DNA from: Scilla litardierei
Lineage: Eukaryota > Streptophyta > Magnoliopsida > Asparagales > Asparagaceae
Assembly (NCBI GenBank): GCA_030789695.1
Contig: CM061135.1
Location: 113,220,301 to 113,284,300, forward strand
Direction of reading: 5' to 3'
Length of the DNA stretch: 64,000 bases
The notes beneath the pieces are model-generated. The model saw nothing but the letters and a program-made list of their open reading frames with translations, made no database searches and had not been told where the DNA came from. Each line of letters begins with the position of its first letter. Position 1 is the stretch's first letter. This document shows positions 3,485-64,000 of the stretch, piece after piece. A program made the translations under genes and the position numbers.

Positions 3485-4881
3485 AATTAGTCTTGGTAAT
3501 ATAGTCTTGTTAGAATCTGTAAGTTGTTAGTTTAATAATTAGTTGTTAAAAGATCAGTAGGTTAGTATTAATATAATGTTAATATGAATAATGTTAGTAA
3601 TGAGATGTTTTGCTATTAGTTAGTAAACCGGTTAATAATATTAGCTTATAATATGATTCTATTAGTGTAAACGGTTAGTCTCATACGCAAATCTATATGC
3701 CACAGATAAATTGCGTCTTCCCCCACAATCACCGGGACATCCACCATCGCCTCCAGGCAAGTATTTATTGTAATTGAATGTTAGGACAAACTGCTTAATC
3801 TGATGCTAAAACTTTATTTTGAACATGCACGTAAACTTAGTAACCAAACTGCATGCTCTTACAATGCATGTTGCAATTGATTAAAATGGACATTTTATGT
3901 TAATGCTTCTTTGATTAAAGAACAACTTTTCTCTGCATGTCATCAATTGAACCAAAACGAAACAGGGGGTAGGACACAACCCTCAAAACATAATGAGAAC
4001 CCATCGATTACAGATGGAAAGGAAACTAGTCGGTGACTGGTTATGACACTTGGGTGGGATTGGTCCATAGTAGTAGGACGTAGATGTAGCTTGACCACCT
4101 TACAGCTCTACCTCCATACCACACCAATAGAGGCAAGCATCTTGGCCATTTTCCTGGTTAGGGATAGCAAGAAGCGTCACGATAAACCCCTGATGATAGG
4201 GTGCATCAAGTACATACTACCAACCCGGACATGGACTTATCACGAGCACAAACAACTGAATACTCAATATACAACTGCTTTACTTTTTGAACTGCAATTT
4301 GTTTATGCTCGTACTTTACTTTTATGCACTTATTACTCATAAATGTGTACTAACGCTCTTTTGTTCTTTTCCAAGTTGTTCCTTATTTCATTACTTTAAA
4401 TATCTTGCCGAGCCATTCGCTGACATATATTTCAATGTAATTGTGAAATATATGTTAGGTTCAAAGACCGATTACATTGAGGACTCCGCTTCTGAGAATC
4501 TTATCTTTGAGGACGATCCTACTTACCGGAGTTATGAGGACACTGAGGTCCTCCCTGCTGAAGAATAGAGAGAGCTGTCTTACTTCTTTTCATTAGTATT
4601 ATTTGTAGCTTGCAGGCGTGTTTGCATTTCTATAAATTGTACTACCATGCAAGGCCTAACTACTTTGTGTACTTATTTTGAAAACTTTGGAATAAAAGTG
4701 AATTAAATATTTATGCTATTCTGATAATATTCGCATGCAAGAAACTGGCCTAACTAAATAAACGCTTATTGTGCTTAAGTCAAAGCAGAAAGAAATGAAT
4801 AAAAGTAATTCTTCTTTGCATTAAGCACATGAGACCCGCTTGTGTCTTCGCTCTCAAGTATAATGGAAAGCGGGCGTGACA
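3482..4881 (+). mobile_element. Decayed Tekay-like gypsy LTR fragment (Gypsy-D)
   Basis: No protein domain is present. The right edge ends in the same kind of terminus as the Gypsy-A and LARD-1 LTRs (GCGGG..GTGACA followed by GGTTTT). A CAG-GCAAGT block at 3754-3761 resembles the one at the start of the stem-loop region in the other LTRs. A hairpin at 4423-4455 and an acidic micro-ORF at 4452-4568 lie at the equivalent place near the LTR end. The AT-rich start (3482-3710) resembles 62500-62760 of Gypsy-E. The left edge is undefined. I infer an old LTR of a related family, cut on the right by the truncated Athila-C LTR. Confidence 0.55.
4452..4568 (+). CDS. Acidic micro-ORF near LTR end (38 aa), Gypsy-D
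   Basis: An ATG at 4452 opens a 38-residue frame ending in TAG. It starts Met-Leu-Gly and is rich in Asp and Glu. It sits at the same place as the 33-35 residue micro-ORFs of LARD-1 (23980) and Gypsy-A (16375, 32919): just after a hairpin whose 3' arm contains the ATG, and shortly before the LTR end. Its sequence is much more diverged but keeps the ML start, length and acidity. Function is unknown. It may be a leader peptide of the genomic RNA, or chance. Confidence 0.3.
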   Translation: MLGSKTDYIEDSASENLIFEDDPTYRSYEDTEVLPAEE

Positions 4882-4887
4882 GGTTTT

Positions 4888-5776
4888 AGAGATACCAATA
4901 TCGATTACAAGCTTCAATAATAAAATCAAGATCCAAGTCTTTAATCTCTCGTCAAATGCAATCTCTAAACTAAAACTATAACCTTGAAAATAAAAGCATG
5001 GAATCTCTCCGTAGGTTGCCTCTAGATCTGACTATTTATATATGCCCAAAAAGATGCAAAAATCCTGATAATTCTGCCCCTTGTCGGCCTCAAACCCTAG
5101 TTTGCAATCTGGGCTAACGGTGCCACTCGGCTGAGTGAACAGCTAACTCGGTCGAGTAAGGAATCTGCATCGAAATCGAAATATAAGCATTCTGGGCTCC
5201 TCAGACCACTCGGCCGAGTAGTCTTCTCACTCGGTCGAGTGGAGTTTCTACTCGGTTGAGTGGAGTCTCCTACAGATCCTCCAAAAAACAAAGAAGTGTC
5301 AAAGATTTTCTTCATAAAATTTTGCTCCACTCGGTTGAGTGGAATCCTCACTCGGTCAAGTGGAAATTCTCACTCGGTCATGTACATTTCAGCTCTCAAT
5401 CATGCTTAATTTGTCGTATCAGCTTCACCTAGTCGCTTCACTCGGTCGAGTGAGCAGCCTCACTCGACCGAGTAGCATGTAAATCTTCTTAAAACTCCTT
5501 CTTGCTTCCTCGTTGATTTGTTTGCCTCTCTTCCTCTTCTACTCATCCTCCAGTGCCGTTATCTCTCCGATATCGTCATCAATGATGCTTCGGGACGTGT
5601 GTATGTGCTCATGGCTCCAAATCGCTCCCGATTGCTCTATATCTCCTGAAATCAGACGAAACCAAGAAATAGTAAAAGGTATCGCGAAATCGTCGTATAA
5701 TCGTGAAAATTGCGATATGAGCAATCGAAATAGCATGCAAAAATGCAGAAATAAATTGTAAAATATGAGCCTATCA
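4888..5776 (-). repeat. Athila-C 3' LTR, truncated
   Basis: On the minus strand the LTR begins TGATAGGCTCATATTT at 5776, right after the polypurine tract. It matches the other LTR (44198 downwards) over about 690 bases. It carries an array of ACTCGG(T/C)CGAGT motifs (5118-5480). Downstream on the minus strand is a TATA box (complement of 5032-5042). Sequence continues as plausible R/U5 to about 4888, where it breaks into Gypsy-D. The right-hand copy lacks the TATA segment, so the two copies have suffered different deletions. Confidence 0.75.
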
Positions 5777-14246: not shown

Positions 14247-14365
14247 GACATTTGGTTTGATATTAGCTTAGCTTGGGTTCGTTAGACTACGCTCATAAAA
14301 AACAAATACAATAACCGAGAAATTTTTTCTCCCACCGTTCTATTATCTTTTTGTTATTCTCTTGT

Positions 14366-16826
14366 TGTAACGACTGCTTTTCATGTATATGGATTTATTA
14401 TAATATAATATATGTTTTGGTGGATTTTCTCCTCTTGTGTGGTTTTCGTCTCCGTAGATTTCATTTTCGATCGATTCGTCGTATTTTCTCGTTTCTTCCT
14501 TAGGATTGTCGATTTCGAAGTATGTCACTCGTGACGGACTTCATAACGGTCGTATCTTACTATTAGATCAAGCCTAGGAGTCTTAGGAATCGATCCCGGG
14601 GCCCCGCGCTCCGTATCGGAACTTTTGTGCTCATTAGCCGGTATAAGATGGGGCACCGACCGACTAGATGACGATCCAGTCGGTCGGCAATCCTTCTTGG
14701 ACCGACTAGTTGGCTTTCTAAAATTATTCAGGAGTTACTGTTTATCGTTAGTCGGTCTAAGAACGTTGGTTGACCGACTAGGTTACAAACTAGTCGGTCA
14801 GCAATGCTTCTTTAACCGACTAACACATCATCTTAATCTTAGTTGAGCTACTGTTTACTCTTAGTCGGTCTAAGAACATTCATCGACCGACTAGATGCTA
14901 AACTAGTCGGTCAGTATTTTTTCATGGACCGACTAACTCTAAAATCCTATTTTAGTTCAGGAGTTACTGTTTGCACTTAGTCGGTCTGCGTTGGTCGACC
15001 GACCGACTAGTTGCCAAACTAGTCGGTCAGTGGTTGCTCTTTGACCGACTAACCAGTGTTGAAACCCTAATTTTTGGGCAGCCGCCAGCCCATCCAATTT
15101 AAACCCAACCCAAACGATTTCATCTTCTCCAACACGACCCAAAACCCTAAAATCTTCCCCCTTGAGCCCCCATCTTCCTCCAAGCTTCATTTCTCCATTC
15201 CAAGCCCTAGAATCATCATCCAAACCATCCATCCACTCTATCTACCTCTCATCTTCCCCAAAATCTCATCAAATCCATCAAAATCCCCAAATCCCCCAAA
15301 AACCCTAGTTTCCCCAAACTTCTCCAATCTTTTCCAGATCTGATCCTAGGGTTCCCCGGAGTGTTCCTTCCGTCTCCTCTCTGTAAGAAATCGATCTACC
15401 GTTGTTTTCATAACCTATTTATATTATTTATGAAACCCTAATAAATTTCATGTTGTTTGTTGATTGTTCCCCCAAAACAGCGATTTCCCCGTAGATTGGC
15501 ATCCGTGTGACGAAGTGGTCGTCATCCCCGGTGCTAGGCAAGTGAAACTTGCCACCTAGGGTTTAGGCCATGTTTTAGGCCATTTTCTTATAGTAGGCGT
15601 AAAAGAGGCTAGGCGACGAAATGATACTCGCCTAGGCGCAAATTGGGGAACTAGCTTGACAACGAAGCTAGTTCCGACATTTAGCATGTTGCACAATTTC
15701 CATGTCATGTTTACTTTCCATTAACGGTACGCAAATTAATTGTCATGTCATTGCATCCTTTAAGTATTTCTGTGAATGGGTAGCTTTGCTACAATGCTTG
15801 TGTTCCTGGCTCGTGTTCCAGAAGCGGGCCATGTGTTGGTTGATAGCCAATGCCCGAATTGCGTGTTTCCGGCTAGGTGCACCCCTACGCCAAATGTTTA
15901 AGAATGCGAGCACATGTGCGGGGCAACCCCAGGCTCACTAGCTGAGTTCATTGTGCGGGGACCCTGGCTCCATTACGTGTGGGTATTGGGGGTAAGAGTT
16001 AAGCGACCAATCAACTGGGAGTCTGCCCGATCAGCAACTGCAGTGGTAAGGCGTAAACTCTTGGGTTTGGGGTAGTTGTTAAGCGGCCACTCAGCGAATG
16101 TGAAACCATTCAGCTGTAAGGCGTAAACATCTACAAACGACGTGAATAGTGAATCGATTGAGATTGATAGTAGCTTGGCTACTCTAGTCTTGTCTTGTCC
16201 CGATAATTGTTCTCTTGTACTACTTGTCTTGCCATGTTTCAATTGTGCACTCAGGTTATAACTGCCATGTCATGCATACTAAACTGCTAGGTTGCTAGTT
16301 GCCTTACTTTCAGTTTTCTTGCCCAAGTCATTTAGACTTGCTGACATGTGCCCCTTTACTCTTTTGGGTGACACATGTTAGATCCTGAGCCTGAGTACCT
16401 TGTTGAGGACGAGGTGTTTGCAGACGCCGAGCCCGAGCTTGTGTTTGACGGGGAGTATGTGGACACTGGGGACCAGTCCTAGTGTCTTCGTTGTGTTTTA
16501 CTTTTGTTAGACAGTTGTTTTGTTATCGGTGCGTAGCACCCATACTTTGTTATGTCGTTTCTTTTGTTGGCCTTGTTCTGGGCCTTTAGACTCTTTTCTT
16601 TTAGCCTGGTGGCTTTTCTGGATGTTGGACTTATTTTCTTGTTGGACAATTTATGAGATGTGAGATTTTATTTCAGTCACTGCTTGTGTTATTATTGTTA
16701 TTCCGTTGTGGTTACAGGGACCTGATTATGTATTTTTGACGCTTATCGGGTTTGGGGCTTCACAGCTCCACTCTCGTGCGGACCTTTTCACGTCTCGCCT
16801 CCATTTTAGGGAAGCGGGTCGTGACA
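14366..16826 (+). repeat. Gypsy-A 5' LTR
   Basis: A 2461-bp LTR, TGTAACGACTGC...CGTGACA, exactly the same length as the copy at 30910-33370 and nearly identical to it. U3 holds an array of GACCGACTAG/CTAGTCGGTC hairpins (14648-15052). A TTTAAA box lies near 15099. Then come a GTAAGA...ACAG intron-like segment (15383-15480), three stem-loops (15537-15553, 15609-15635, 15647-15675), a hairpin at 16344-16378 and the acidic micro-ORF. The flanking base run before it is CTTGT, but no matching right-hand duplication survives. Confidence 0.93.
16375..16482 (+). CDS. Acidic micro-ORF near LTR end (35 aa), Gypsy-A
   Basis: ATG to TAG, 35 residues. The N-terminus is MLDPEPE, the middle is rich in Glu, Asp and Val, and the C-terminus is VDTGDQS. 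The LARD-1 LTR encodes a 33-residue relative with the same first seven residues and the same VDTGDQ end. Between the two families at least seven codons differ only at the third base, which suggests selection on the peptide. The ATG sits in the 3' arm of a hairpin. No known family is recognised. It would lie in the genomic RNA leader if transcription starts in the usual U3/R position. Confidence 0.4.
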   Translation: MLDPEPEYLVEDEVFADAEPELVFDGEYVDTGDQS

Positions 16827-16969
16827 GGTTTTGTTGGTGGCCCATGCAGGTCCTTCTGTAACTGCGATTTTTGGAATAGCGATAATAATATTAGAATGTC
16901 CAATAAATTGAGTTCGACGTCCGAGTCATAAGCTATGAGTCTAATCTGATTCGTTTTCTGTGTCACTAG
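16827..16969 (+). other. Gypsy-A leader and presumed primer site
   Basis: The first 27 bases after the LTR (16827-16853) are identical in both Gypsy-A copies and in LARD-1. They contain TGGTGGCCCATGC, which begins with TGG as primer sites do. I cannot match it to a tRNA 3' end, and it is not the usual initiator-Met site. TCACTAG directly before the gag ATG could also be a splice acceptor. Confidence 0.5.
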
Positions 16970-18101
16970 ATGGCAGGAAGACGTTTCACCCGTGGTGGGG
17001 GTAGTGGCGCGGTCCCTCATGATGAGGAGCCTGAGCGGGAACCCACCAGCGGTGAGATGATGCGGATGATGCTCCAGATGATGCAAGTGCAGCAGGGCGT
17101 GCTTTTGCAAGTCCAGAATGCTCCACTTGCTCGAGCCGCCCAGGCTCTTTCGGATGCCCCTCACTCTGAGCCAGGAGCAAAGCAATTTCGGGAGCTGGGT
17201 CCCGCATATTTTGATGGTTCTGAGGGTCCTCTGGCTGCCGATGAGTGGATTCAGAACATTGAGGACAATCTGAAGATGGCCAAGATCACCCCGGCTGGAT
17301 GGGTTGATTTGGCGAAGAGGCAACTCAAGGATAATGCTCGGAATTGGTGGGATGCGGAAGAGAAGATGTTGGTGGAGCCGGTAGCTTGGGCTACCTTCAA
17401 GGCTAGATTTGAGGGTGAGTTCTTTCCGAAGGCTGCCAGGGAGGAGATGCTGCAGCGTTTTATCGATTTGAAGCAAGGGAACTCGTCGGTGGACCTATAT
17501 CACCAAGAGTTCATGAGGCTGAGTCGGTTTACACCAAAGATGGTGCAGGACGCTGAGGAGAGAGCTCAGAGGTTCCTGCAGGGGCTTGCTTCGGAGCTTC
17601 AGAGTTTTGTGACCTCTTCTAACCGGGAGTCTTATCAGAAGGTTCTGGTAGCAGCTAAGAGGCAGGAGCTGCTCGTGAACCAGAGGAAGGGGTCTGTTGT
17701 TGGTGCTGGGAAGAGGCCTGTGGAACAGGCGAGAGCTGTGGTTAGACCTGGATTCAGGCCTAATCAGTCTGCTCAGTTTAAGAGGCCAGGAGGGCCTATT
17801 CTGAAGTTTTGCCATTTCTGTGGTAAGTCTGGCCACATCAAGGATCAGTGTCGGAAGTTTTTGGGCCAGTGCCTGGTTTGCGGTGATGCTTCTCATGCCG
17901 CGAAGGATTGTCGGCATGCGAATCAGCTGCGGAGGGCTCCTGTTGCAGCACAGCCGTTGCAGCAGCGAGCGTCTGTTCCTGCTGGCCGTGGAGCAGCTCT
18001 TGTTCCGTAGAGGCAGGCTTTTCAGCAGGCTGTTCCGCCGAGGAGGCATGCTTTTCTGATGACTGCTGCGGAGAGCGAGGCTGTGGATGAGGTTATCGCA
18101 G
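16970..18101 (+). pseudogene. gag: Gypsy-A copy 1 gag (nucleocapsid), with in-frame TAG
   Basis: The start ATG at 16970 begins an Arg/Gly-rich N-terminus. A retrotransposon gag domain follows (residues about 65-235, with AYFDGSEGPLAADEWI and a FFPKAAREEM block). Two CCHC zinc knuckles close it, CHFCGKSGHIKDQC and CLVCGDASHAAKDC, which bind the genomic RNA. A Gln-rich linker then runs into a TAG at 18008-18010, beyond which the frame stays open for about 90 bases to an intron-like donor at 18102. The TAG is also present in copy 2, so it predates their separation. It may be a CAG-to-TAG change or a suppressed stop between gag and pol. Otherwise gag is full length. Confidence 0.85.
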
Positions 18102-21569: not shown

Positions 21570-24413
21570 TGTAACGACCACTTTTCGTCGTACGTTTTTC
21601 GTGCACGTGCTTTTGGCCGTGCACGTGTTTGTTTGGACTTTGTTCGTTTGTGAACACTTTTGTGCGATATGCCGTTGTGAACGTCTCTGAGAGTATTAAA
21701 TAGTGGCACTATTTTGGAACGACGTTTCTCGAGTCGTTTTTCCACAATTTAAACTTACTCGATGAGACGTGACGATTTTCACTTTTGACGGGAGACGTTT
21801 CTATTTTTAGTTTCGTCGTCCGACGTCGAAATTGAGATCCGTCTTCGTAGATAGCTCACATTCGTCGCCACGATCACCACGATATTTATTTTATAATTTT
21901 TGGAGTTCATTTGACCACTTTTATAATTTTTACAATTTTTATATTATTTGTAATAATTAATTTATAAATTATTTTCGGCCAAATAAAATTTATTTGAGTT
22001 TTAAACGTTTTAAAGAATTTTTGAGCCAATTTCCAGCTCATTTGGACCAGGTCAAACCCTTGGATGAGTTGGAGTAATTGAATTTCAAATTTTAAATCTT
22101 TTTGAACTTCTAATCCTATTAGATTTAGCCCTAGACCAAGTCAACCCATCTACACTATATAAGCAACCCCTAGCAAGACCTATTTTCCAAAGAAATTAGC
22201 CCTAGCCTCCTCCAAAACCAAAATTGGACGTTGCGACGATTCGTCGCAACGTTGCGACGTTCAGCAGCCGCACGACCGAGAGAACGGGCTTCGTTCCCCC
22301 GCTCCGACCGCTGGCCGCCCCCGCACCAAGCTTGGCCCGCATCGCTGCACAGCCGCTCCGCTCAATTCTTCCGCACCGACCGAAGGGAGCTCTCGGTCAG
22401 ACCGAGAGCTCAAGCGCCCGCTCCGCACCCAGTCGCCCGCCGCTCCTTTGCAATGCTCGCACCCCGCTCCGACCGAGAGGACCAATCGATCTGACCGGCC
22501 CGCTCCACCGCTCCGCATCGCAACCCCCGCTCCGCTGCAGCCCAAGCGTCTGACCGAGGCGCCCGACCGGTCTGACCGATAGGGACCCTCGCACCAAGCC
22601 TCGCCCCGCAGCCGCTGCACACCCCAACGTCGCAGCCCCCGCATTTTGAGCGCACGACCGAGAGATTCCCCCGCATTGGCTGTGTACGACCGAGAGCCAC
22701 TCGTCGCAACCCCACATCCGTCGCACCACTTGCCTCCGTGGGCCCCCCAAGTTCTCCAGAGTTATTGTGGGTCCCCCAAAGGTCCCTAGGACTACTGTGG
22801 GCCCCACCTAGGTGCGTTCTCTTCGACGACTTGCCGCGTACGACGTCGTCGCACGTCGTAGCCCGTCGTCGCACGTGTGAGCTTTGGAATCTGGAATCGT
22901 CGCCCCGGTTGATGCTCTGAATTCTCCAGCGAGGAAACTAAATTGGAATCTGGACTTGGAGCGCGTTCTTCTATTCCAACCCCCGGCGTCGCTACCCGAC
23001 GCCGGTGTAGCTTTCGCGTCGTGTTGAGGTAACGTTTTGCACCCCAAGGACCCCCAACCCAATTGCATGCTAATCAAGACTAAAATCAGTATTTTTAAAG
23101 TATTTTAAATGTTTTAAATTCACTAATCAAGATTAATAATATGGACTTTAGGCCGGTGGACTTGTGCACGTAGTAATTGTGATTTTTGGACTCATTGGAC
23201 GGTGTGCTCAGACGTCGTGCTTGCAGGCAAGTGAAACTTGCCAACTCTTGTGTAGGGCCATGTTTTTAGGCCACTTTCTTGTTCCTAGCGTAAAAGAGAC
23301 TAGTCAGTGAAATGATAGCTGGCTAGACGCCTACTTTATCTAGTTTGACAACGAAACTAGATCCGTCACCTAAATGATCTAGCTTGACAACGAAGCTAGA
23401 TCCAACCCTTAAACTTGTCATTCATGCATGCTAAACTGTCACGTTTACTTTTCTTACCTGTACGCTTTACTACTTGCCATGCCATGTCATCCATGCATTG
23501 AATGTCGCATTGGTAGCACACGCTACACTACTTGTCCTTGTACTCCCTTGACTGGCTAGGTGCACCCCTAGACCAGCAAGATAAAACACTTCCTGGCTCG
23601 TGTTCCAGAAGCGAGCATTCCCGTTCGGGGGTAAGGCCCTGGCTCGACACACGTGGAGGGGTAGGGATAAACGATCACTTGAGCTTAGGAGTTGGCCCGC
23701 GCAGCCACTCTAGCCAAAAGGCGGAATCTCTGTGCACGAGGTGCTTACTTTCCTTGTCTTGTACTTGTCTTGTGAATGATTCATGTAATACTTGTCATCC
23801 ATGCCATGCCATGCTCGTACTTTACTTTACTTTATTTTACCTGCTGCACTCATACTTTAACTGTCATGTCATCGTATCATGCTAGAACTGCTAGGTTGCT
23901 CTACTTGTACCTACTTTCAGTTTCCTTGCAGAAGTCATCCAGACTTGCTGACATGTGCCCCTTTCTCTTTGGGTGTCACATGTTAGACCCTGAGCCAGAG
24001 ATAGTTGTTGAGGTCGAGGTAGTTGCTGACACTGAGCCTACGTTCGTCGAGGAGTTCGTGGACACCGGAGACCAGTTTTAGAGACTGTTGGCGTTGCTTT
24101 TGCTTTAGGTTGCTGTTAGATGTCGGTGCTTGCACCATTACTTATTGTTGTACTTGTACTTTTGTTGGCCATGCTCGGCCTCTTTAGTCTCTTAGCCTGG
24201 TGGCTTTTCTGCGATGTTGGAATTTATATTTATGGATATTCTGAGATTATTCTTTTGTCTCATTTCATTATTATTATCTTGTTTCGCTCGCGTTGCAAGG
24301 ACCTGCAGTTTTAAATTTGATTGACGCTTATCGGACTTGCAGCTTTGTAGCTTCAAGTCTGAGCGGACCTTCTCACGCTTCGCCTCCACGTTTTTGGGAA
24401 GCGGGGCGTGATA
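21570..24413 (+). repeat. LARD-1 5' LTR
   Basis: U3 is AT-rich, with a TATATAA box at 22156-22162. A GC-rich leader follows (22220-22980) with CCGAGAG/CTCTCGG motifs, including a near-perfect palindrome with 12-bp arms and a one-base centre (22387-22411). Then come a hairpin (22983-23005), an intron-like GAG-GTAACG...TTGCAG segment (23029-23226), stem-loops (23226-23242, 23300-23326, 23338-23362, 23376-23402), a hairpin at 23951-23983 and the acidic micro-ORF. Open frames in the GC-rich part are low-complexity and not supported as genes. Confidence 0.92.
23980..24081 (+). CDS. Acidic micro-ORF near LTR end (33 aa), LARD-1
   Basis: ATG to TAG. It shares MLDPEPE and VDTGDQ with the Gypsy-A micro-ORF while the middle differs in length by two codons. 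Codon differences are concentrated at third positions. In the 3' LTR copy (30369 onwards) one base is lost after the third codon and further changes follow, so only the 5' copy is intact. Confidence 0.4.
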   Translation: MLDPEPEIVVEVEVVADTEPTFVEEFVDTGDQF

Positions 24414-27400
24414 GGTTTTGTTGGTGGCCCATGCAGGTCCAGTCTTGCAATTGCGAATTAACGAAACAACGATAATAACGGAATGTCCATTAAATAAATT
24501 GCAACATCCGAGTCAGAAGCCCTGAATCTAGTCATTTCCCTATGTCCCTAGGTGGTAGAGACTTAGTTAGACGTCTATGCTTGCTAGTTAAGGGCCTCTG
24601 TTTGTTAGTTAGACTCCCTGTCAGCCATTGATTCAATCTTCGTAGGAGTTACCTTAGTGGTCCTTGTTTACCCTTTACCATATTAGACTTCTAGGATTTT
24701 CCTTTGGTCGTTCGCTTGGGTTCATCGATTTCGGACCCGGCTGAACGCATTTCATTACCGCCTAGCTCCTTAGAGGTCTTAGCGCTTAGTTTTTAATCTT
24801 TAGTTGGTCGACCGTAGGTGTTTCCGTAGACTTCCTGATTCATATCCTAGGAGTATGAATGTTTTGATCATCCGACCAATTTCCTTGCCTCGATTCACGA
24901 GATCGCCTCATGACGATCGTCGTCAATTTTCGAACCTCTCCATTATGAATTTTGAAACTCTTGAAAGTATTTTTCGAACATCCTCCTTTCCGAAGTTTAA
25001 TTTTGATCCAAATTTCAATGCATGTATACTTATACTTCATCCCCCTTCGTTGATTTAAAATTTTTAAAACGTTGTCGGAATTTCTGAATACTAGTTTATA
25101 GTATTTCCCCAGCCTATGTTTTTCGTACTTGCGTAAATGTGTCGTTCCTTCATATAGTAATTTTATTCTGAACCGTACTTTTATTTTGCTCAGTTCGATT
25201 TATAATTTTCCCTCCTGATTTATGCCATTTGAATAATACATCGTGTTTCATATACTTTTCAAGACACATGGAATTTCAGTTTTCAGCAAGTTGGTCGTTC
25301 TCGCTATTTCAGATTTTTGCAAAATTACTATTTTCATAACCACTTCCTGATTTAGACCCTCCATGATTTGATTTTAAAGACTTGCTATTCGATTTCGATA
25401 ATTCTACTACTAAGATAATATTATTTTTCCGTGCACCATACATACTTTTAGAATAATTTCTAAACTAAATTGAATTTCAATTATTTTTATATCCGTACCA
25501 GGCTCGTTGTTCTTGTATGCTAAGAGCTTTGTGTAAATCAGTTTTAATTTTTGTACACCCTGGTTCTCTAAAAAGTAGTTTCAATATTGATTATTTTAAA
25601 TTTCTCCATAGCCTAAAAGTTTTGAAAGCATTTAACACGAGTTTAAATTTTTCCGTTACTTGATTTCATTCTTCGACTTTCCAAAACTTTTGACAACATT
25701 ATATTAAAATTTCTGACGTATAAATTTTCTAAAACCACGTCCTTAATATTCGTGTAAATGATTTTTGCTTCCTTTTAAAATTTATTTTTTGCCAATAAAA
25801 CATTTTCTCTTATTACGAATATTCGACTCAAACTTATTTCAACTTGCTTTATCGATCTTCAAATATTTTATACAGATGAGGAATTCCAATTTTTTTGAAG
25901 TACAACGGTTTTCAAAATCCATGTATTTTAGCCCCTGCTATTTACCCTCTTTTCTTTTTCCCCTCCTATATAAGCATCACTACATCTTCCTTTTCCCTCA
26001 ACCTAAACACCACCATTGAGCCAATGTTTCCCCTAACCAAGCTGTCTCCTTGTATTCGTCCCATCTGAACTCGTGCTTATCGATCCTTCTCTCGTCACAC
26101 TTTCGAACTCCCCCTATTGCTTAGGCTTAAGTGTCCGTCAATGTCTGTGTCAACTCTTAATTGTTAGTAGACCCTTGGACCTTTGTGAAGTGTCGTAGTG
26201 CACGTACCCAAGTTGTGTACGTAGGCTTGAATGAGGTTGCCCCCATAGTATATTAATGCTTGCCTATTGTGTGATATATTTATATATATATACATACTCG
26301 GAGTTATTTGGGATATTATGGAGTTGTTTAGGTGTTATTATTTATATATTTGGGTGTAGTTAGCTATACTATACTAGGGATGCATGTGTATATAAGAGTT
26401 AGCGTTGAAATGTCTAATGGAGTGTATGGAGTTAAAGATACTTATAATGGTTGAAATAAATGATTGGTAAAGCTATGTGTGTGTTAGTAGTGATAATAAT
26501 AATAGTACGTATGGTTAAGAGGGTAGGCCTATTATGTGATCTATATGTTAGCACGTATGAGTGTGTGCTCATACGTGGGTATGTATTGTGTTTAGACGTA
26601 AGTAGTTATGTTTTGTTGCCTGAGTATATAGGTGATATACATATGGCAGTAGGAGTGTAATTTTGATTGGTATTGCTTGCTTTTCGGGATGTTGCATGCG
26701 TGCATACCGTGAGGTATACACGACTATTGCACATCTTAATTATGTACGTATAGATGTGTTAGTATACTAATTATAGGCAGTAGGCTATGGTGTGAATATA
26801 TATATGTTACATGGGTGTGACTATACGATGAATACGTATGCATGTATTAGGGAGTGTATTATAAATGTATATGTACTGATGACTGTATTACTATTAGTAT
26901 GGTATATAAATTGATTTAACTATGTGAGAATTGCCTGAATAAATATTAAGTGTGATTGATTTATGGAATGTATATGGTTGTATTGGTAGATGTATATACA
27001 TTGGAGTGGTGCTGGTATATGTGTAAATGCCGTGTTACGAATATTCTGATATGTGTACTGAGTCTCACTCAAGCTTGAGTGGGTATACTCTAAGTATATT
27101 GAATGTATGTTTGTAATATAGCGATGTTTGATGTATGTATAGTGATAGGAGTGTTTGTGCCTGGTTGTGTTACGCACATGATTGTGGGTCGCTACACCAG
27201 TATATAGTTATAGGTGTTGGTCTTGTGGTATAGCTAATTATTAAGGACTTGCTCGTGTGAACGTATGTGTACTAGCTAAAACTAGGTGTGTATGTGTGCT
27301 AGTTATATAATGGTATGATTGGTGTATGAAAATGAAATGTTAGCGTGTATGGGTGTGCACCATGCACGGGTAGGTATGTGCTTAGTTATAGGTATTGATG

Positions 27401-27985: not shown

Positions 27986-30819
27986 TGTAACGACCACTTT
28001 TCGTGGTACGGTGTTCGTGCACGTGCTTTTGTCCGTGCACGTGTTTGTTTTAGACTTTGTTTGTTTGTGAACACTTTCGTGCGATATGCCGTTGTGAACG
28101 TCTCTGAGAGTATTAAATAGTGGCACTATTTTGGAACGACGTTTCTCGAGTCGTTTTTCCACAATTTAAACTTACTCGATGAGACGTGACGATTTTCACT
28201 TTTGACGGGAGACGTTTCTATTTTTAGTTTCGTCGTCCGACGTCAAAATTGAGATCCGTCTTCGTAGATAGCTCACATTCGTCGCCACGATCACCACGAT
28301 ATTTATTTTATAATTTTTGGAGTTCATTTGACCACTTTTATAATTTTTACAATTTTTATATTATTTTTAATAATTAATTTATAAATTATTTTCGGCCAAA
28401 TAAAATTTATTTGAGTTTTAAACGCTTTAAAGAATTTTTGAGCCAATTTCCAGCTCATTTGGACCAGGTCAAACCCTTGGATGAGTTGGAGTAATTGAAT
28501 TTCAAATTTTAAATCTTTTTGAACTTCTAATCCTATTAGATTTAGCCCTAGACCAAGTCAACCCATCTAAACTATATAAGCAACCCCTAGCAAGACCAAT
28601 TTTCCAAAGAAATTAGCCCTAGCCTCCTCCAAAACCAAAATTGGACGTTGCGACGATTCGTCGCAACGTTGCGACGTTCAGCAGCCGCACGACCGAGAGA
28701 ACGGGCTCCGTTCCCCCGCTCCGACCGCTGGCCGCCCCCGCACCAAGCTTGGCCCGCATCACTGCACAGCCGCTCCGCTCAATTCTTCCGCACCGACCGA
28801 AGGGAGCTCTCGGTCAGACCGAGAGCTCAAGCGCCCGCTCCGCACCCAGTCGCCCGCCGCTCCTTTGCAATGCTCGCACCCCGCTCCGACCGAGAGGACC
28901 AATCGATCTGACCGGCCCGCTCCACTGCTCTGCATCGCAACCCCCGCTCCGCTGCAGCCCAAGCGTCTGACCGAGGTGCCCGACCGGTCTGACCGATAGG
29001 GACCCTCGCACCAAGCCTCGCCCCGCAGCCGCTGCACACCCCAACGTCGCAGCCCCCGCATTTTGAGCGCACGACCGAGAGATTCCCCCGCATTGGCTGT
29101 GTACGACCGAGAGCCACTCGTCGCAACCCCACATCCGTCGCACCACTTGCCTCCGTGGGCCCCCCAAGTTCTCCAGAGTTATTATGGGTCCCCCAAAGGT
29201 CCCTAGGACTACTGTGGGCCCCACCTAGGTGCGTTCTCTTCGACGACTTGCCGCGTACGACGTCGTCGCACGTCGTAGCCCGTCGTCGCACGTGCGAGCT
29301 TTGGAATCTGGAATCGTCGCCCGGGTTGATGCTCTGAACTTTCCAGCGAGGAAACTATATTGGAATCAGGACTTGGAGCGCGTTCTCTTATTCCAACCCC
29401 CGGCGTCGCTACCCGACGCCGGTGTAGCTTTCGCGTCGTGTTGAGGTAACGCTTTGCACCCTTAGGACCACCAACCAAATTGCATGCTAATCAAGACTAA
29501 AATCAGTATTTTTAAAGTATTTTAAATGTTTTAAATTCACTAATCAAGATTAATAATATGGACTTTAGGCCGGTGGACTTGTGCACGTAGTAATTGTGAT
29601 TTTTGGACTCATTGGATGGTGTGCTCAGACGTCGTGCTTGCAGGCAAGTGAAACTTGCCAACACTTGTGTAGGGCCATGTTTTTAGGCCACTTTCTTGTT
29701 CCTAGCGTAAAAGAGACTAGTCAGTGAAATGATAGCTGGCTAGACGCCTACTTGATCTAGTTTGACAACGAAACTAGATCCGTCACCTAAATGATCTAGC
29801 TTGACAACGAAGTTAGATCCAACCCTTAAACTTGTCATTCATGCATGCTAAACTGTCACGTTTACTTTTCTTACCTGTACGCTTTACTACTTGCCATGCC
29901 ATGTCATCCATGCATTGAATGTCGCATTGGTAGCACACGCTACTCTACTTGTCCTTGTACTCCCTTGACTGGCTAGGTGCACCCCTAGACCAGCAAGGTA
30001 AAACACTTCCTGGCTCGTGTTCCAGAAGCGAGCATTACCGTTCGGGGGTAAGGCCCTGGCTCGACACACGTGGAGGGGTAGGGATAAACGTTCACTTGAG
30101 CTTAGGAGTGGCCTGATCCGCCCTCTAGCCAAAAGATGGAATCCCTGTGCACGAGGTGCTTACTTTCCTTGTCTCGTACTTGACTTGTGAATGCCATGCC
30201 ATGCTCGTACTTTACTTTACTTTACTTTACCTGTTGCACTCATACTTTAAACTGCCATGTCATTGCATTCATGTTAGAACTGCTAGGTTGCTTTACCTAC
30301 TTTCAGTTTCCTTGCACAAGTCTCTTGTAGACTTGCTGACATGTGCCCCTTGCTCTTTTGGGTGTCACATGTTAGACCTGAGCCAGAGATCGTTGCTGCG
30401 TACGTGATGTGTTGCTGACGCTGAGTCTGAGTCCATGATTGCCCAGGAGGATTTTGGTGGACACCGGTGACCATTCTTTGAGTCCTTGTTGAGCTCTATT
30501 TTGTTTTAGGCCTTTTGTTAGTTATTGGTGCGTAGCACCGTTGTTTTGTACTTTGTGGTTTTGTTGGCCATGTTTGGGCCTTTAGTCTCTTTTCTTTTAG
30601 CCTGGTGGCTTTTCTGCGATGTTGGAAACTTATTTTATGGATATTCTGAGATGTCTCTTTTGTCTCATTTAATTATTGTTATCTTTGTTTCGTTCGCGTT
30701 GCAAGGACCTGCAGTTTTAAATTTGATTGACGCTTATCGGACTTAAAGCTTTGTAGCTTCAAGTCCGAGCGGACCTTCTCACGCTTCGCCTCCATATTTT
30801 TGGGAAGCGGGGCGTGACA
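27986..30819 (+). repeat. LARD-1 3' LTR
   Basis: It matches 21570-24413 almost base for base. It differs by scattered substitutions and small indels, mostly in the last 700 bases (30110-30480), where the micro-ORF is frameshifted. TATATAA is at 28573-28579. The stem-loops are kept at 29643-29659, 29717-29743, 29754-29780 and 29793-29819; in the last a C-to-T change leaves a G-U pair. It ends GTGACA, followed by the ATGAG duplication. Confidence 0.92.
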
Positions 30820-30909: not shown

Positions 30910-33370
30910 TGTAACGACTGCTTTTCATGTATCTGGATTTATTATAATATAATATATGTTTTGGTGGATTTTCTCCTCTTGTGTGGTTTTCGTCTCCGTA
31001 GATTTCATTTTCGATCGATTCGTCATATTTTCTCGTTTCTTCCTTAGGATTGTCGATTTCGAAGTATGTCACTCGTGACGGACTTCATAACGGTTGTATC
31101 TTACTATTAGATCAAGCCTAGGAGTCTTAGGAATCAATCCCGGGGCCCCGCGCTCCGTATCGGAACTTTTGTGCTCATTAGCCGGTATAAGACGGGGCAC
31201 CGACCGACTAGTTGACGATCCAGTCGGTCGGCAATCCTTCTTGGACCGACTAGTTGGCTTTCTAAAATTATTCAGGAGTCACTGTTTATCGTTAGTCGGT
31301 CTAAGAACGTTGGTTGACCGACTAGGTTGCAAACTAGTCGGTCAGCAATGCTTCTTTAACCGACTAACACATCATCTTAATCTTAGTTGAGCTACTGTTT
31401 ACTCTTAGTCGGTCTAAGAACATTCATCGACCGACTAGATGCTAAACTAGTCGGTCAGTATTTGTTCATGGACCGACTAACTCTAAAATCCTATTTTCGT
31501 TCAGGAGTTACTGTTTGCACTTAGTCGGTCTGCGTTGGTCGACCGACCGACTAGTTGCCAAACTAGTCGGTCAGTGGTTGCTCTTTGACCGACTAACCAG
31601 TGTTGAAACCCTAATTTCTGGGCAGCCGCCAGCCCATCCTATTTAAACCCAACCCAAACGATTTCATCTTCTCCAACACGACCCAAAACCCTAAAATCTT
31701 CCCCCTTGAGCCCCCATCTTCCTCCAAGCTTCATTTCTCCATTCCAAGCCCTAGAATCATCATCCAAACCATCCATCCACTCTATCTACCTCTCATCTTC
31801 CCCAAAATCTCATCAAATCCATCAAAATCCCCAAATCCCCCAAAAACCCTAGTTTCCCCAAACTTCTCCAATCTTTTCCAGATCTGATCCTAGGGTTCCC
31901 CGGAGTGTTCCTTCCGTCTCCTCTCTGTAAGAAATCGATCTACCGTTGTTTTCATAACCTATTTATATTATTTATGAAACCCTAATAAATTTCATGTTGT
32001 TAGTTGATTGTTCCCCCAAAACAGCGATTTCCCCGTAGATTGGCATCCGTGTGACGAAGTGGTCGTCATCCCCGGTGCTAGGCAAGTGAAACTTGCCACC
32101 TAAGGTTTAGGCCATGTTTTAGGCCATTTTCTTATAGTAGGCGTAAAAGAGGCTAGGCGACAAAATGATACTCGCCTAGGCGCAAATTGGGGAACTAGCT
32201 TGACAACGAAGCTAGTTCCGACATTTAGCATGTTGCACAATTTCCATGTCATGTTTACTTTCCATTAACGGTACGCAAATTAATTGTCATGTCATTGCAT
32301 CCTTTAAGTATTTCTGTGAATGGGTAGCTTTGCTACAATGCTTGTGTTCCTGGCTCGTGTTCCAGAAGCGGGCCATGTGTTGGTTGATAGCCAATGCCCG
32401 AATTACGTGTTTCCGGCTAGGTGCACCCCTACGCCAAATGTTTAAGAATGCGAGCTCATGTGCGGGGCAACCCCAGGCTCACTAGCTGAGTTCATTGTGC
32501 GGGGACCCTGGCTCCATTACGTGTGGGTATTGGGGGTAAGAGTTAAGCGACCAATCAACTGGGAGTCTGCCCGATCAGCAACTGCAGTGGTAAGGCGTAA
32601 ACTCTTAGGTTTGGGGTAGTTGTTAAGCGGCCACTCAGCAAATGTGAAACCATTCAGCTGTAAGGCGTAAACATCTACAAACGACGTGAATAGTGAATCG
32701 ATTGAGATTGATAGTAGCTTGGCTACTCTAGTCTTGTCTTGTCCCGATAATTGTTCTCTTGTACAACTTGTCTTGCCATGTTTCAATTGTGCACTCAGGT
32801 TATAACTGCCATGTCATGCATACTAAACTGCTAGGTTGCTAGTTGCCTTACTTTCAGTTTCCTTGCCCAAGTCATTTAGACTTGCTGACATTTGCCCCTT
32901 TACTCTTTTGGGTGACACATGTTAGATCCTGAGCCTGAGTACCTTGTTGAGGACGAGGTGTTTGCAGACGCCGAGCCCGAGCTTGTGTTTGACGGGGAGT
33001 ACGTGGACACTGGGGACCAGTCCTAGTGTCTTCGTTGTGTTTTACTTTTGTTAGACAGTTGTTTTGTTATTGGTGCGTAGCACCCATACTTTGTTATGTC
33101 GTTTCTTTTGTTGGCCTTGTTCTGGGCCTTTAGACTCTTTTCTTTTAGCCTGGTGGCTTTTCTGGATGTTGGACTTATTTTCTTGTTGGACAATTTATGA
33201 GATGTGAGATTTTATTTCAGTCTCTGCTTATGTTATTATTGTTATTCCGTTGTGGTTACAGGGACCTGATTATGTATTTTTGACGCTTATCGGGTTTGGG
33301 GCTTCACAGCTCCACTCTCGTGCGGACCTTTTCACGTCTCGCCTCCATTTTAGGGAAGCGGGTCGTGACA
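30910..33370 (+). repeat. Gypsy-A middle LTR (shared by copies 1 and 2)
   Basis: 2461 bp, the same length as 14366-16826, with few differences. It is the 3' LTR of copy 1 and at the same time the 5' LTR of copy 2. TATTTAAA is at 31640-31647. The stem-loop at 32153-32179 has one loop change. The 5' arm of the hairpin before the micro-ORF has one change (ACATTTG). Confidence 0.92.
32919..33026 (+). CDS. Acidic micro-ORF near LTR end (35 aa), Gypsy-A middle LTR
   Basis: Intact, and identical in predicted protein to the copy at 16375-16482. The two LTRs differ by one silent base inside it (TAT/TAC). See that entry for features. Confidence 0.4.
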   Translation: MLDPEPEYLVEDEVFADAEPELVFDGEYVDTGDQS

Positions 33371-33513
33371 GGTTTTGTTGGTGGCCCATGCAGGTCCTTC
33401 TGTAACTGCGATTTTTGGAAGAGCGATAATAATATTAGAATGTCCAATAAATTGAGTTCGACGTCCGAGTCATAAGCTATGAGTCTAATCTGATTCGTTT
33501 TCTGTGTCACTAG

Positions 33514-59650: not shown

Positions 59651-60903
59651 TGTTGAGTATTGGACTCCCCGGATTTGGTTTTGGATGATGAGCAAACATA
59701 AATATATCATGAACTAACAATTTGTGAGCGCAGTTATGGAGATCGTCGCCAAATTCACGAGAACAACAAAAGCGACGTCTCAAGACTTCTCAATGTGCGT
59801 GATCGTGTGCCTGGAGCTTCGTTGAAGCTCAATGAGCAATATTGAAGTCAAGAAGAATGAAGATTGAAGCTTTGAAGACGGATCGCTAAGGTTTATTTTA
59901 TAGTCTTTTAGCTTTGATCTATAGAATGTTAAGCTTTGAGTAATTCTTACATTTCTATCTTCATTTCGCTCATATCGTAGCTCTAGGATCTTAGTACAAG
60001 TTCATTCTAACTTCCTCGAAGCATCGCGCTTCGATTCGGACTTGTTTGTGCATGTTAGTTGGTACAAGAATAAGTACTGACCGACTAGATGGTGATTTAG
60101 TCGGTCAGCAACTCTTCTTGGACCGACTAGTTTGATTCCTTAATTTCTTGGACTTTACTGTTTACAGTTAGTCGGTCTACGTTGACTCACCGACCGACTA
60201 GTTTGTGAACTAGTCGGTCAGTGATGCTTCTTTGACCGACTAGTTGTGACTTACTGTTCATACTAAATTTCTCCTAAGCTACTGTTTATCGTTAGTCGGT
60301 CTAAGAACGTTTGGTGACCGACTAGTTGTTGATCTAGTCGGTCAACATTTGTTCTTGGACCGACTAAATCATTTGTATTCAGACTATTTGTTTTTGACTC
60401 TTAGTCGGTCTAAGTTTATTGACCGACCGACTAGTTGTGAAACTAGTCGGTCAGAAAGTCTTCTTGGACCGACTAGTTATCTAGGTCTGAAATCTTCATC
60501 TGTTCGCTGTTCACCTCTTAGTCGGTCCATGTTGTCTCACCGACCGACTAGTTGATGAACTAGTCGGTCAGTGGTTGTTCTTTGACCGACTAGTCTGCTT
60601 CAGATTTAGATCCGTTGGAGTTTTGAAAGCGACGTTTCTCTCTCCATTTTCCCTTGATCCTTTAAATACCTGAAGGGGTTATTTCATAGGATCTAAGGCT
60701 GCTATTTCAGAGTTCTATTGATTCAAAGAGAAGTTTTCAACTCTCATCTTCAAGCTCTCCCATTCTCAAGAATCTCTCCCTCACTCTTATTCCTCAAGAG
60801 AGATTCATTGATTGTGAGCCTTCCAAGCCAAGGGCTTGATTCTAGGTCATCCATCTCATCCCTAGGCTTCCATTGCTGGTCATCTTCTTGAAGCTAGGGT
60901 TTA
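59651..60903 (+). repeat. LTR-F: probable Copia-type LTR fragment
   Basis: It starts TGTTGAGTATTGGACTCC next to the LINE-2 5' end, a start that resembles Copia LTRs. U3 carries an array of GACCGACTAG/CTAGTCGGTC hairpins (60078-60595), homologous to the array in the Gypsy-A LTR. A TTTAAATA box (60661-60668) and a leader-like C/T-rich stretch follow. Homology ends near 60903, so U5 is lost. The Copia assignment rests on the first bases only. Confidence 0.5.
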
Positions 60904-61430
60904 ACGGCCTGTTTTCGGACCAATTTGAATTTTGTGTGTGTGCACAGCAATTAGGTCTGTGCGTAAAGTGATTTGGTCTGTGTGCATAGCAGATGTCGTC
61001 TGTGCACGCAGTAGGACCCTAGAACCTTTGCTTGAACCTATAGATAGCCTCCGTGACTCGTGTCCGACTTGGGAACACGTGTCAACCCAAGCCAACACCT
61101 CGTTCACACTGGAATTGCTATATGCACCGACCGTTTGAACAACACGCTATACACGCAAATCGACGGGCGATTCTGAGACAAACCACACGTACATGACAGT
61201 ACTTATGCCAGGAACCTGTAGGCGACCCCCCGTAGACCAGTGAGACCCCGCGTGCACGAACAGAACGCGTATCTCGGCAGTATCACGCGTATTGATCCGA
61301 TACGGCATTTTCCGCTGTATCAGCATAACCAGACCCAACCAACCCCGCACACATGTGCACTTGGGTGTCTCGGAGCTCTGTGCATGCCCCGGACCCATGC
61401 CTCAATGCACATGCACGTAACGCACATGCA
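60904..61430. other. Unassigned repeat-rich segment
   Basis: Three imperfect GGTCTGTGC(G/A)-type repeats occur at 60950-61015. CACACGTACATGAC and GCGTAT-rich sequence follow. No coding and no recognisable element border is seen. Confidence 0.4.
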
Positions 61431-63441
61431 AACCCTAGGTTTCACTTTGATTTATCCCCAAATAATTAGTTAATAATAAGTTACATCTGAATAATTGGTT
61501 CAGCCACTTTTTCTCTCCATGACCGCGCACACACACAGGTGAGAGAGAGAGGTACCGGCTTATTTTCTTAAAAACAATTTTTTTTTACCTAAGACCTATA
61601 ACCCTAGGTCACCCACGATAGTCTTCACGTGCTGTCTCTTGAACCCTCACCCATTCATTTTAGAAACCCTAGGTATACATGTAAATATACCTAATATGGG
61701 GACCCACGCCCTACAGCCTTTTTGAACCCTAGTCGTTTTAAACCACAACCTAGGCAATTTATTTCACAGAGCTGCTCCTCATCGCGATGTCTATTGCGCC
61801 GCCACCCGCTCTTCTACATTCGACGTCGCCTCCTCCCATCAAGACCACCCTGTCCCTGCCCCGACCAGCCCCCGTCGGACTTCCTCCGACCAAACCCGGG
61901 TCCCGCCGCCGCCTGTGATCAAGACCCACGCGCGGCAACTTCTGCGCGTTTCTCCCCGCCCCGAGACCCCGACGCCGGCGCCCCCCCTCAATCCTCCGAC
62001 CTCCTCCCGCCCATCGCGGCCCCTCAGCAGCCCGCAACCGCTGCCCACGGCGCCGACCGGCCTCCTCTTATCTGCCCGTCACCGGAAACTGCCGCGACAG
62101 GCCGCTCATCTTGTGCCTACCACCCTCGCAGCCATCCCAAGCTGCTGATCCTGCTGCCTCACGTCTTCCCCCAGTGTGGCCCGCACCGTCCAACTACTCG
62201 TCGCTCCGGCGGGCTTCTTCCTCCTCGAACCAGGCCGAACACCCCCACACCCTCTTCTAAAACTGCTGAGCGCCGACCCTCACCATCTCCGGATTCTCTC
62301 CCATCACCGAGCCTGGCCGGTGCTCCCTTGCCCACCGTCGGAACAGATGCTGCCATGAGAACAACTCCCCGCGAGCAAGCGAGCAACGTGAACAATTAGG
62401 CAAGTACTTTACGTACACGTTAATAGTAGGTGTGTATGATACGCATATTATTATGCAAGGGTGGACCACGTGAACGGTTTGTGGACTTCAATCATTATAT
62501 AGGTATAGTTATATAAGCTTATTATATTATGATATGTGAGAATTGGTCACAGTTTAATTTTGTAAGTTATATTACATCTGTAAGTTATCTAACATCATAC
62601 AACTTATAATATTGGGTTTGTTTGATAACAGTACAATGATTAGTAAGACTTTAATGTTATTAGCTGAATCGCGATTAACTTAAATAACACGAATCCATGT
62701 CGCAGATAAGATACGGTTCCCTTGCAACCCGTTACCGTTTCCGAGTCGACGCCGTTACCTTACCCGATACCGAAATCCAACTCCTGACGTCGCTACCCGA
62801 CGTCAGTGTAGCTTTCGCACCGTGTTGAGGTAATGTTTTGCACTCTTAGGACCCCCCAACCCAACCCTGTTTAAACAAGATAAAAATCGGTATTCTGGTT
62901 GTCTGATAATTCACTAATGAAGATAACTTAAATTGGGACTGTAGGCTGGTGACCCAAAGCGGGCCCAGTTAATCTGGCTTATATTATGACGTTGCCTGTG
63001 GATGTTAGAGTGCATGATTGTGATGATAGGATTATCATACAGGTTCTGTAGATCCGTTGGTTGACCCAGACCCTGCTGGACTACATCCTTGTCGGAATCT
63101 TTCAGGCAAGGAATGAGACTTTAGTTACTGCTTTTATACTTTTCTAGAATTGATGTTAGAACTGCTAGATTTATTTCTGCAAAATACTTGAAAATGATCA
63201 CATGTTACTTTCTGCTCGAACCCACTTTTAAAATGCAACTTAAACCTCACATGCTAATTAATAAGCCGGACATTATAATTGCGTGGATCTTTGTAGAAGA
63301 TCACTGGCGTGGGCCTCTCCTATACGGAGGTTGGCACTACTCTTGTGGAGCGTCTGCTGGATAGCCCAGAGACGGCTCGCTTACGGACTTGTGGAACGTT
63401 TGCTGGCTCGTCCAGGAATGTCTCACTTATGGATAGTTAAT

Positions 63442-63655
63442 CGATGACGGGGGGTGACCATTGAGAACTGGTGCTCCCCAGCTTTGGCTCACCCGTGACT
63501 GGTGCGCTCCGGTATGATACGTAGTATCATTCATGATTAATGATTTGTTTCGGATCGACGACGGGGGTGACCATTGAGAACTGGTGCTCCCCAGCTTTGG
63601 TTCACCCGTGACTGGTGCGCTCCGGTATGATACACCGTATCATTCGTGATCCTTG
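63442..63655 (+). repeat. Tandem duplication, about 114 bp, two units
   Basis: Units start at 63442 and 63556 and share GGTGACCATTGAGAACTGG and a following block. Each contains a small ATGATAC-NNN-GTATCAT hairpin with a different centre. Confidence 0.85.
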
Positions 63656-63874
63656 TCTTGTCTCGTGTCTAGATGGAGCGTTTGTTGGCTCGTGTCCATA
63701 ACACAAACGACTCGCGGGTGGGGTAGGACAAAAGAGTCTAGCTGGGCCTGGGGGGGTAGCTCCCCTCCCGCCTACGCAGCTTGAGTCCTTAGGCTTTATC
63801 TTTGTATCGCAGTTGGTGCACTCCTGTTTGCTTCGCAGGGATGCATTCCGGTCATTTGACCTTTTCTAGACTTG

Positions 63875-63976
63875 GACAATCTGACCAGATGGACACCCCT
63901 GGCAGATTGATAGAACTACATGAACAACTCTTAGACGATCTGACTAGATGGACACCCCTAGCAGATCGATTAGAAT
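63875..63976 (+). repeat. Tandem duplication, about 59 bp, two units
   Basis: Units start at 63875 (GACAATCTGACCAGATGG) and 63934 (GACGATCTGACTAGATGG) and share ACACCCCT and AGAT(T/C)GAT. They are separated by an unrelated stretch. Confidence 0.75.
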
Positions 63977-64000
63977 AACCATTACTTGTTTCCTGCTTTC

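Follow-up and report, generated by a model that had tools for sequence, protein, structure and literature searches.

Does a frame of a few dozen codons inside the long terminal repeats (LTRs) of plant retrotransposons encode a peptide kept by selection, or is it a by-product of neighbouring signals? The locus that raises this question lies in Scilla litardierei, in a 64,000-nucleotide stretch of contig CM061135.1 (the window). The answer proposed here is a tentative one, namely a small leader gene whose weak start codon would be gated by a hairpin.

Elements and LTRs

Gypsy-A has the gene content and gene order of a Ty3/gypsy element, with Retrotrans_gag, RVP_2, RVT_1, RT_RNaseH and Integrase_H2C2 all above cut-off. 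Its Chromo match (E 0.0019, 18.5 bits against a cut-off of 25.1) lies in a stretch interrupted by LARD-1, which is inserted in the end of this putative chromodomain and flanked on either side by ATGAG. The first and second Gypsy-A LTRs are called A (or A1) and A2, the 5' and 3' LTRs of LARD-1 are called L5 and L3, and Gypsy-D is called D.

14366..16826, + strand: first Gypsy-A LTR (TGTAACG...CGTGACA)
16970..18010, + strand: gag of Gypsy-A, 346 aa
21570..24413, + strand: LARD-1 5' LTR, with ATGAG immediately before
22156..22163, + strand: candidate promoter box of LARD-1, TATATAAG
27986..30819, + strand: LARD-1 3' LTR, with ATGAG immediately after
30910..33370, + strand: second Gypsy-A LTR

The two Gypsy-A LTRs are identical at 2438 of 2464 columns, free of gaps (14366-16829 against 30910-33373). 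They are part of a tandem LTR-body-LTR-body arrangement at 14366-38091, with 7182 bases matching at 99.0% and LARD-1 nested in the first body. In the LARD-1 pair, 55-60 of 60 columns agree per segment up to 23669; beyond that point (23669-24413 against about 30084-30819) agreement is 36-57 of 60 in full segments. This pattern suggests that the R/U5 part of LARD-1 is a product of conversion or a mosaic, despite the ATGAG at both ends.

Immediately 3' of three LTRs (16827-16860, 24414-24440 and 4882-4900) GGTTTT is present each time, and inspection by eye found no primer site of the tRNA-Met type there; at the primer-site place after the Gypsy-A LTR, GGTTTTGTTGGTGG is read by eye, not TGGTATCAGAGC. 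A tRNA-Met primer site is described as usual in chromoviruses (PMC6317226). A further LTR-like family (E) occupies 60025-64000 and combines the upstream repeats of Gypsy-A with a stretch of LARD-1 LTR (62776-62951); the window stops short of the place where its hairpin would be expected. The repeats, of about 114 bases and partly palindromic (CCGACTAG...CTAGTCGGTC), lie in the upstream LTR part, at 14624-15071 and 60045-60612. Plant Metaviridae LTRs are reported as not modellable in a survey of LTR structure, owing to length variation (PMC3601003).

A short acidic frame recurring in the LTRs

The preliminary description of this DNA had noted a frame of 33-35 codons in Gypsy-A and LARD-1, differing in length by whole codons. 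It was recovered at 16375-16482 (35 codons) and 23980-24081 (33 codons), the difference being two codons. The second Gypsy-A copy and the hairpin treated below are additions to that finding.

16375..16482, + strand: Gypsy-A micro-ORF in the first LTR, ATG...TAG, 35 codons and stop
32919..33026, + strand: Gypsy-A micro-ORF in the second LTR, same peptide, one synonymous difference
23980..24081, + strand: micro-ORF of the LARD-1 5' LTR, 33 codons and stop
30369..30407, + strand: decayed frame of the LARD-1 3' LTR, stop after 12 codons
4452..4568, + strand: acidic ML frame of Gypsy-D, 38 codons

The frame is thus open in four of the five copies within the window and broken in L3. The A1 and A2 micro-ORFs are a single synonymous base apart, and this pair carries little information. 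From an earlier ATG the same frame is open farther 5' in Gypsy-D (87 codons) and in LARD-1 (101 codons); ML is taken as the common start because a TGA stands two codons ahead of the micro-ORF ATG in Gypsy-A. The 5' LTR of LARD-1 had been said to keep the frame after the loss of all other genes. The LARD-1 interior does contain no listed frame of at least 150 aa and the L5 frame is intact, but the frame of the 3' LTR stops after 12 codons. The Gypsy-D frame had been presented as a diverged copy: a 38-codon acidic ML frame is present at 4452-4568, but when aligned to those of A and L5, its peptide scores no higher than random reorderings of its own residues (P 0.40 and 0.54). Sequence homology of the Gypsy-D peptide, alignable only by composition, is unsupported; what speaks for a diverged copy is its place, its hairpin, the ML start and the acidic composition.

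Acidity sets these frames apart. Counting every in-frame ATG on either strand, the window has 258 frames of 30-45 codons from ATG to stop, and the five with the largest net negative charge are A1, A2, D, and L5 with two nested starts. When the sequences were shuffled with dinucleotides preserved (20,000 shuffles), 11%, 13% and 6% stayed open, with a charge near neutral; the observed acidity was reached by none of the open shuffles for A or L5 and by 0.08% for D. The predicted structure of the A peptide, from an alignment of two, has no secondary structure (mean pLDDT 68, pTM 0.13), and the micropeptide is probably disordered. Pfam matched none of three peptides. A protein search with the micropeptide returned no match in a database that is nearly without plant elements, so that this result is little informative; in the same database the Gag query found four proteins at E <= 0.001, the best 51% identical.

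Codon-level constraint

Across 33 aligned codons of A and L5, 15 are identical, 8 differ synonymously and 10 nonsynonymously, in line with the earlier count of at least seven codons changed only in the third base. The 25 differences in 99 bases fall 6, 6 and 13 on codon positions 1, 2 and 3. With pS 0.591 and pN 0.161, pN/pS is 0.27 (bootstrap 95% range 0.13-0.52 from 1792 usable of 2000 resamples) and dN/dS is 0.16, whereas pN exceeds pS in the other two frames (pS 0.144 and pN 0.227; pS 0.230 and pN 0.271). Despite the 25 base changes 23 of 33 residues are kept; when the changes were placed at random, 0.5% of 20,000 trials kept as many. Of 209 segments of 33 codons that lack a stop in Gypsy-A, taken from either strand of the aligned stretch, the four with the lowest pN/pS all belong to the micro-ORF frame; when segments with stops are included (861), the twelve lowest also belong to it, each overlapping the micro-ORF, and the exact start ranks 17th. 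The changes between A and L5 thus resemble those of a selected gene more than those of chance.

The comparisons with L3 differ, with little constraint against A (pS 0.366, pN 0.249) and none against L5 (pS 0.123, pN 0.213). The simplest reading of these values would be a frame that A and L5 have maintained while it decayed in L3, and the coding signal is carried by one comparison, A with L5. The earlier suggestion of a leader peptide or upstream ORF (uORF) is partly supported, by the constraint between the intact, diverged copies in A and L5.

An exonic splicing enhancer rich in purines (GAG/GAC) could yield an acidic frame by chance. GAGGAC-type words in A and D and splice-like sequences 5' of the hairpin are consistent with it. 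An enhancer is not expected to show codon phase, however, and third positions account for 13 of the 25 A-L5 differences; the low pN/pS is confined to the micro-ORF frame and the splice sites score weakly. We regard an enhancer as quite improbable.

Constraint on amino acids also bears on the kind of function. A uORF that matters only by its presence needs no such constraint, which favours a function of the peptide over a mere uORF. A uORF acting in cis through its product is a different matter: the nascent acidic peptide would stall or destabilise the ribosome and so restrain Gag synthesis on the genomic RNA, on the model of plant conserved-peptide uORFs or of intrinsic ribosome destabilisation. 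The codon-level constraint between A and L5 would fit this, as would the position of the micro-ORF 5' of gag and the distribution of the most similar residues, which lie at the two peptide ends (7 of 7 N-terminal residues, and VDTGDQ close to the C-terminus, A with L5); interruption of translation by consecutive acidic residues is reported for bacteria and also for eukaryotes (PMC9718836). Yet the longest acidic run, in A and D, is three residues, nine more ATGs precede gag, and a brake in cis would not be expected to be lost alone while its hairpin is kept, as happened in L3. Such a cis-acting peptide appears unlikely.

A hairpin around the start codon

Each of the five LTRs contains a hairpin bounded by the same two short motifs.

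16341..16381, + strand: hairpin of the first Gypsy-A LTR, CTGACAT...ATGTTAG, ATG in the 3' arm
32885..32925, + strand: hairpin of the second Gypsy-A LTR, one broken pair, 5'-arm ATG lost
23948..23986, + strand: hairpin of the LARD-1 5' LTR
30336..30375, + strand: hairpin of the LARD-1 3' LTR, stem intact
4420..4458, + strand: hairpin of Gypsy-D, upper stem different in sequence

The window contains five instances of CTGACAT followed by 25-27 bases and ATGTTAG, where 0.04 would be expected, for a pattern derived from these same copies, and the micro-ORF start codon falls within the 3' arm in all five LTRs. Fold z-scores are -3.37 (A1), -1.50 (A2), -2.25 (L5), -1.73 (L3) and -3.57 (D). In the five-sequence alignment 97.1% of cells pair. 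Changes on both sides occur at three stem pairs, all in Gypsy-D, and two both-side pairs remain in a control with the partner slid by +2; 9 of 14 stem pairs are invariant, and the number of further pair types was matched or exceeded in 483 of 500 shuffles. In these five related sequences, stem covariation may be taken as supportive, not conclusive. The start context is poor in all five (C or T at -3, T at +4). An extra ATG, with G at -3, stands in the 5' arm of A1, L5 and L3; it is lost in A2 and absent in D. An Rfam search of 14300-17000 gave three matches at E <= 1, all far under the gathering scores.

Among A, L5 and L3 the arms are invariant at 29 of 30 positions and the rest of the frame at 60 of 101; the positions that follow directly are invariant at 59 of 118, and those 5' of the hairpin at 43 of 55. 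Within the R/U5 part, conservation over 30 bases is highest (29 of 30 among the same three) in the TTTTAGCCTGGTGGCTTTTCTG region at 16597-16630. In L3 the stem is intact although the frame is broken, so that hairpin and peptide appear separable.

The hairpin might then be all that matters, as a packaging, dimer or processing signal, with the frame a relic or a by-product of neighbouring sequence. The broken frame beside an intact hairpin in L3, the conservation of the arms beyond that of the frame and the missing coding constraint between L5 and L3 all point this way, but the synonymous excess between A and L5 is limited to the micro-ORF frame, and the acidity of A, L5 and D is well past that of the shuffles. 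We judge a hairpin alone to be as improbable as the cis-acting peptide. That conserved stretches exist also upstream of the hairpin and at 16597-16630 is counted against a micropeptide.

Leader context and splicing

The micro-ORF may plausibly be placed in a transcribed leader. TATATAAG at 22156 is 1.8 kb 5' of the LARD-1 micro-ORF, and a transcript starting there would therefore hold the micro-ORF far downstream. Gypsy-A has 20 ATGs between 15050 and the micro-ORF and 9 between the micro-ORF and gag; plain scanning therefore cannot serve both the micro-ORF and gag, which counts against a leader gene unless splicing removes part of the leader or its start lies farther 3'. Splicing would resolve this ATG load and is left as an idea. 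Branch-point-like and acceptor-like sequences do occur 5' of the hairpin:

16277..16313, + strand: splice-acceptor-like stretch ahead of the hairpin, TACTAAAC...TTACTTTCAG, low score, an idea only

With a splice-site matrix, no donor or acceptor above threshold was found in Gypsy-A or LARD-1. Nor does the presumed first exon contain significantly few ATGs (P 0.235 in A1, 0.266 in A2, 0.057 in L5 and 0.060 in family E). The spliced-leader model, which TACTAAAC and TTACTTTCAG had prompted, was downgraded on account of the weak site scores and the non-significant ATG shortage.

A related proposal would make the micro-ORF an alternative first exon of gag that supplies an acidic Gag N-terminus. It draws on TTTTCTGTGTCACTAG immediately 5' of the gag ATG. 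Against it, the frame is closed by a stop in A, A2, L5 and D, LARD-1 is without gag, and the splice-site matrix places no donor above threshold in Gypsy-A; with no such donor the N-terminal exon was put aside, and we hold it to be very improbable.

Comparison with known systems

Plant conserved-peptide uORFs (CPuORFs) are short frames before a main frame whose amino acids are constrained. Constraint of this kind is found here between A and L5 only (dN/dS 0.16) and not with L3; CPuORFs moreover lie in an mRNA leader and repress the main frame, whereas for the micro-ORF a transcript, stalling and an effect on gag are hypothetical. The shunt layout of plant pararetroviruses places the end of a short frame a few bases ahead of a long hairpin. 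The micro-ORF is arranged differently, as it begins in the 3' arm of the hairpin and continues downstream; what is alike is a reverse-transcribing element with a long leader, a short frame and a hairpin (PMC5902531).

Extra ORFs of plant LTR retrotransposons are likewise additional sense-strand frames beside gag-pol (PMC7264820, PMC6317226, PMC11728184). One survey set a lower limit of 250 codons for frames outside the polyprotein (PMC6317226) and another a minimum_length of 300 (PMC11728184). According to a review, most additional ORFs are situated between pol and the 3' LTR, and neither 'in the LTR' nor 'within the LTR' was matched in its text (PMC7264820). The micro-ORF differs in having 33-38 codons, below the 250-codon limit (PMC6317226), and in lying inside the LTR. 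ORF0 of rice Retrosat2, RIRE3 and RIRE8 is an extra frame 5' of gag-pol in elements with long LTRs, and the LTRs of RIRE8/Retrosat2 terminate in GGGCGTGACA, as does that of Gypsy-D (PMC3485330). For Retrosat2, ORF0 is described as a frame of its own ahead of gag-pol, with folded models, and by this description it is set apart from the micro-ORF (PMC3485330). No description of a micro-ORF inside the LTR of a plant element was found among the matches listed, which comprised titles and the starts of abstracts, with subscription journals largely outside coverage.

In wider searches, viral contigs gave no relative of the pol and no hairpin pattern, and 4 of 46 pattern-matching stretches in genome contigs encode a relative. 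The sole relative reaching an LTR end by eye, L003, has neither ATGTTAG nor a frame of 20-60 codons with an acidic excess of at least 5; it is weak evidence, being a different element with its LTR cut by the contig start. L001, L002 and L003 are short contigs filed as bacterial, with gypsy pol proteins 52-60% identical to that of Gypsy-A, and they look like plant contamination.

A proposed hairpin-gated leader micropeptide

The explanation that we favour, though at somewhat less than an even chance, is a leader micro-gene for an acidic, probably disordered micropeptide whose weak start codon is gated by the hairpin. The frames, the codon constraint in one comparison, the acidity, and the hairpin with its survival without the frame are observed, and from these we infer transcription and translation. 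The R/U5 part of the LTRs would be the site of the micro-gene. There the hairpin with its invariant ends (CTGACAT and ATGTTAG) would mask an AUG of poor context, and ribosomes opening it would make an acidic, probably disordered peptide of 33-38 residues. The peptide perhaps serves the element as a trans-acting accessory factor and may have a basic partner, for instance Gag or histones; in cis the hairpin could limit initiation on RNA destined for packaging. It is most likely the peptide itself that works, because the amino acids and not just an open frame are kept between A and L5, and the hairpin would have a separate RNA or DNA function, because the stem survives in L3. The preference for a trans-acting micropeptide with hairpin gating over a cis uORF, a hairpin-only function, an enhancer and a gag exon is held with moderate confidence at best, since one comparison carries the coding signal.

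A broader proposal, which we consider doubtful, is that plant gypsy LTRs hold an unrecognised gene for a trans-acting accessory micropeptide, its start codon locked by a hairpin, which gene-less relatives such as LARD-1 carry or shed. As LTRs have been treated as regulatory DNA and surveys skip such short frames, a selected LTR micropeptide could have escaped notice. If true, it would provide a way into the question of how the RNA of plant retrotransposons is divided between translation and packaging.
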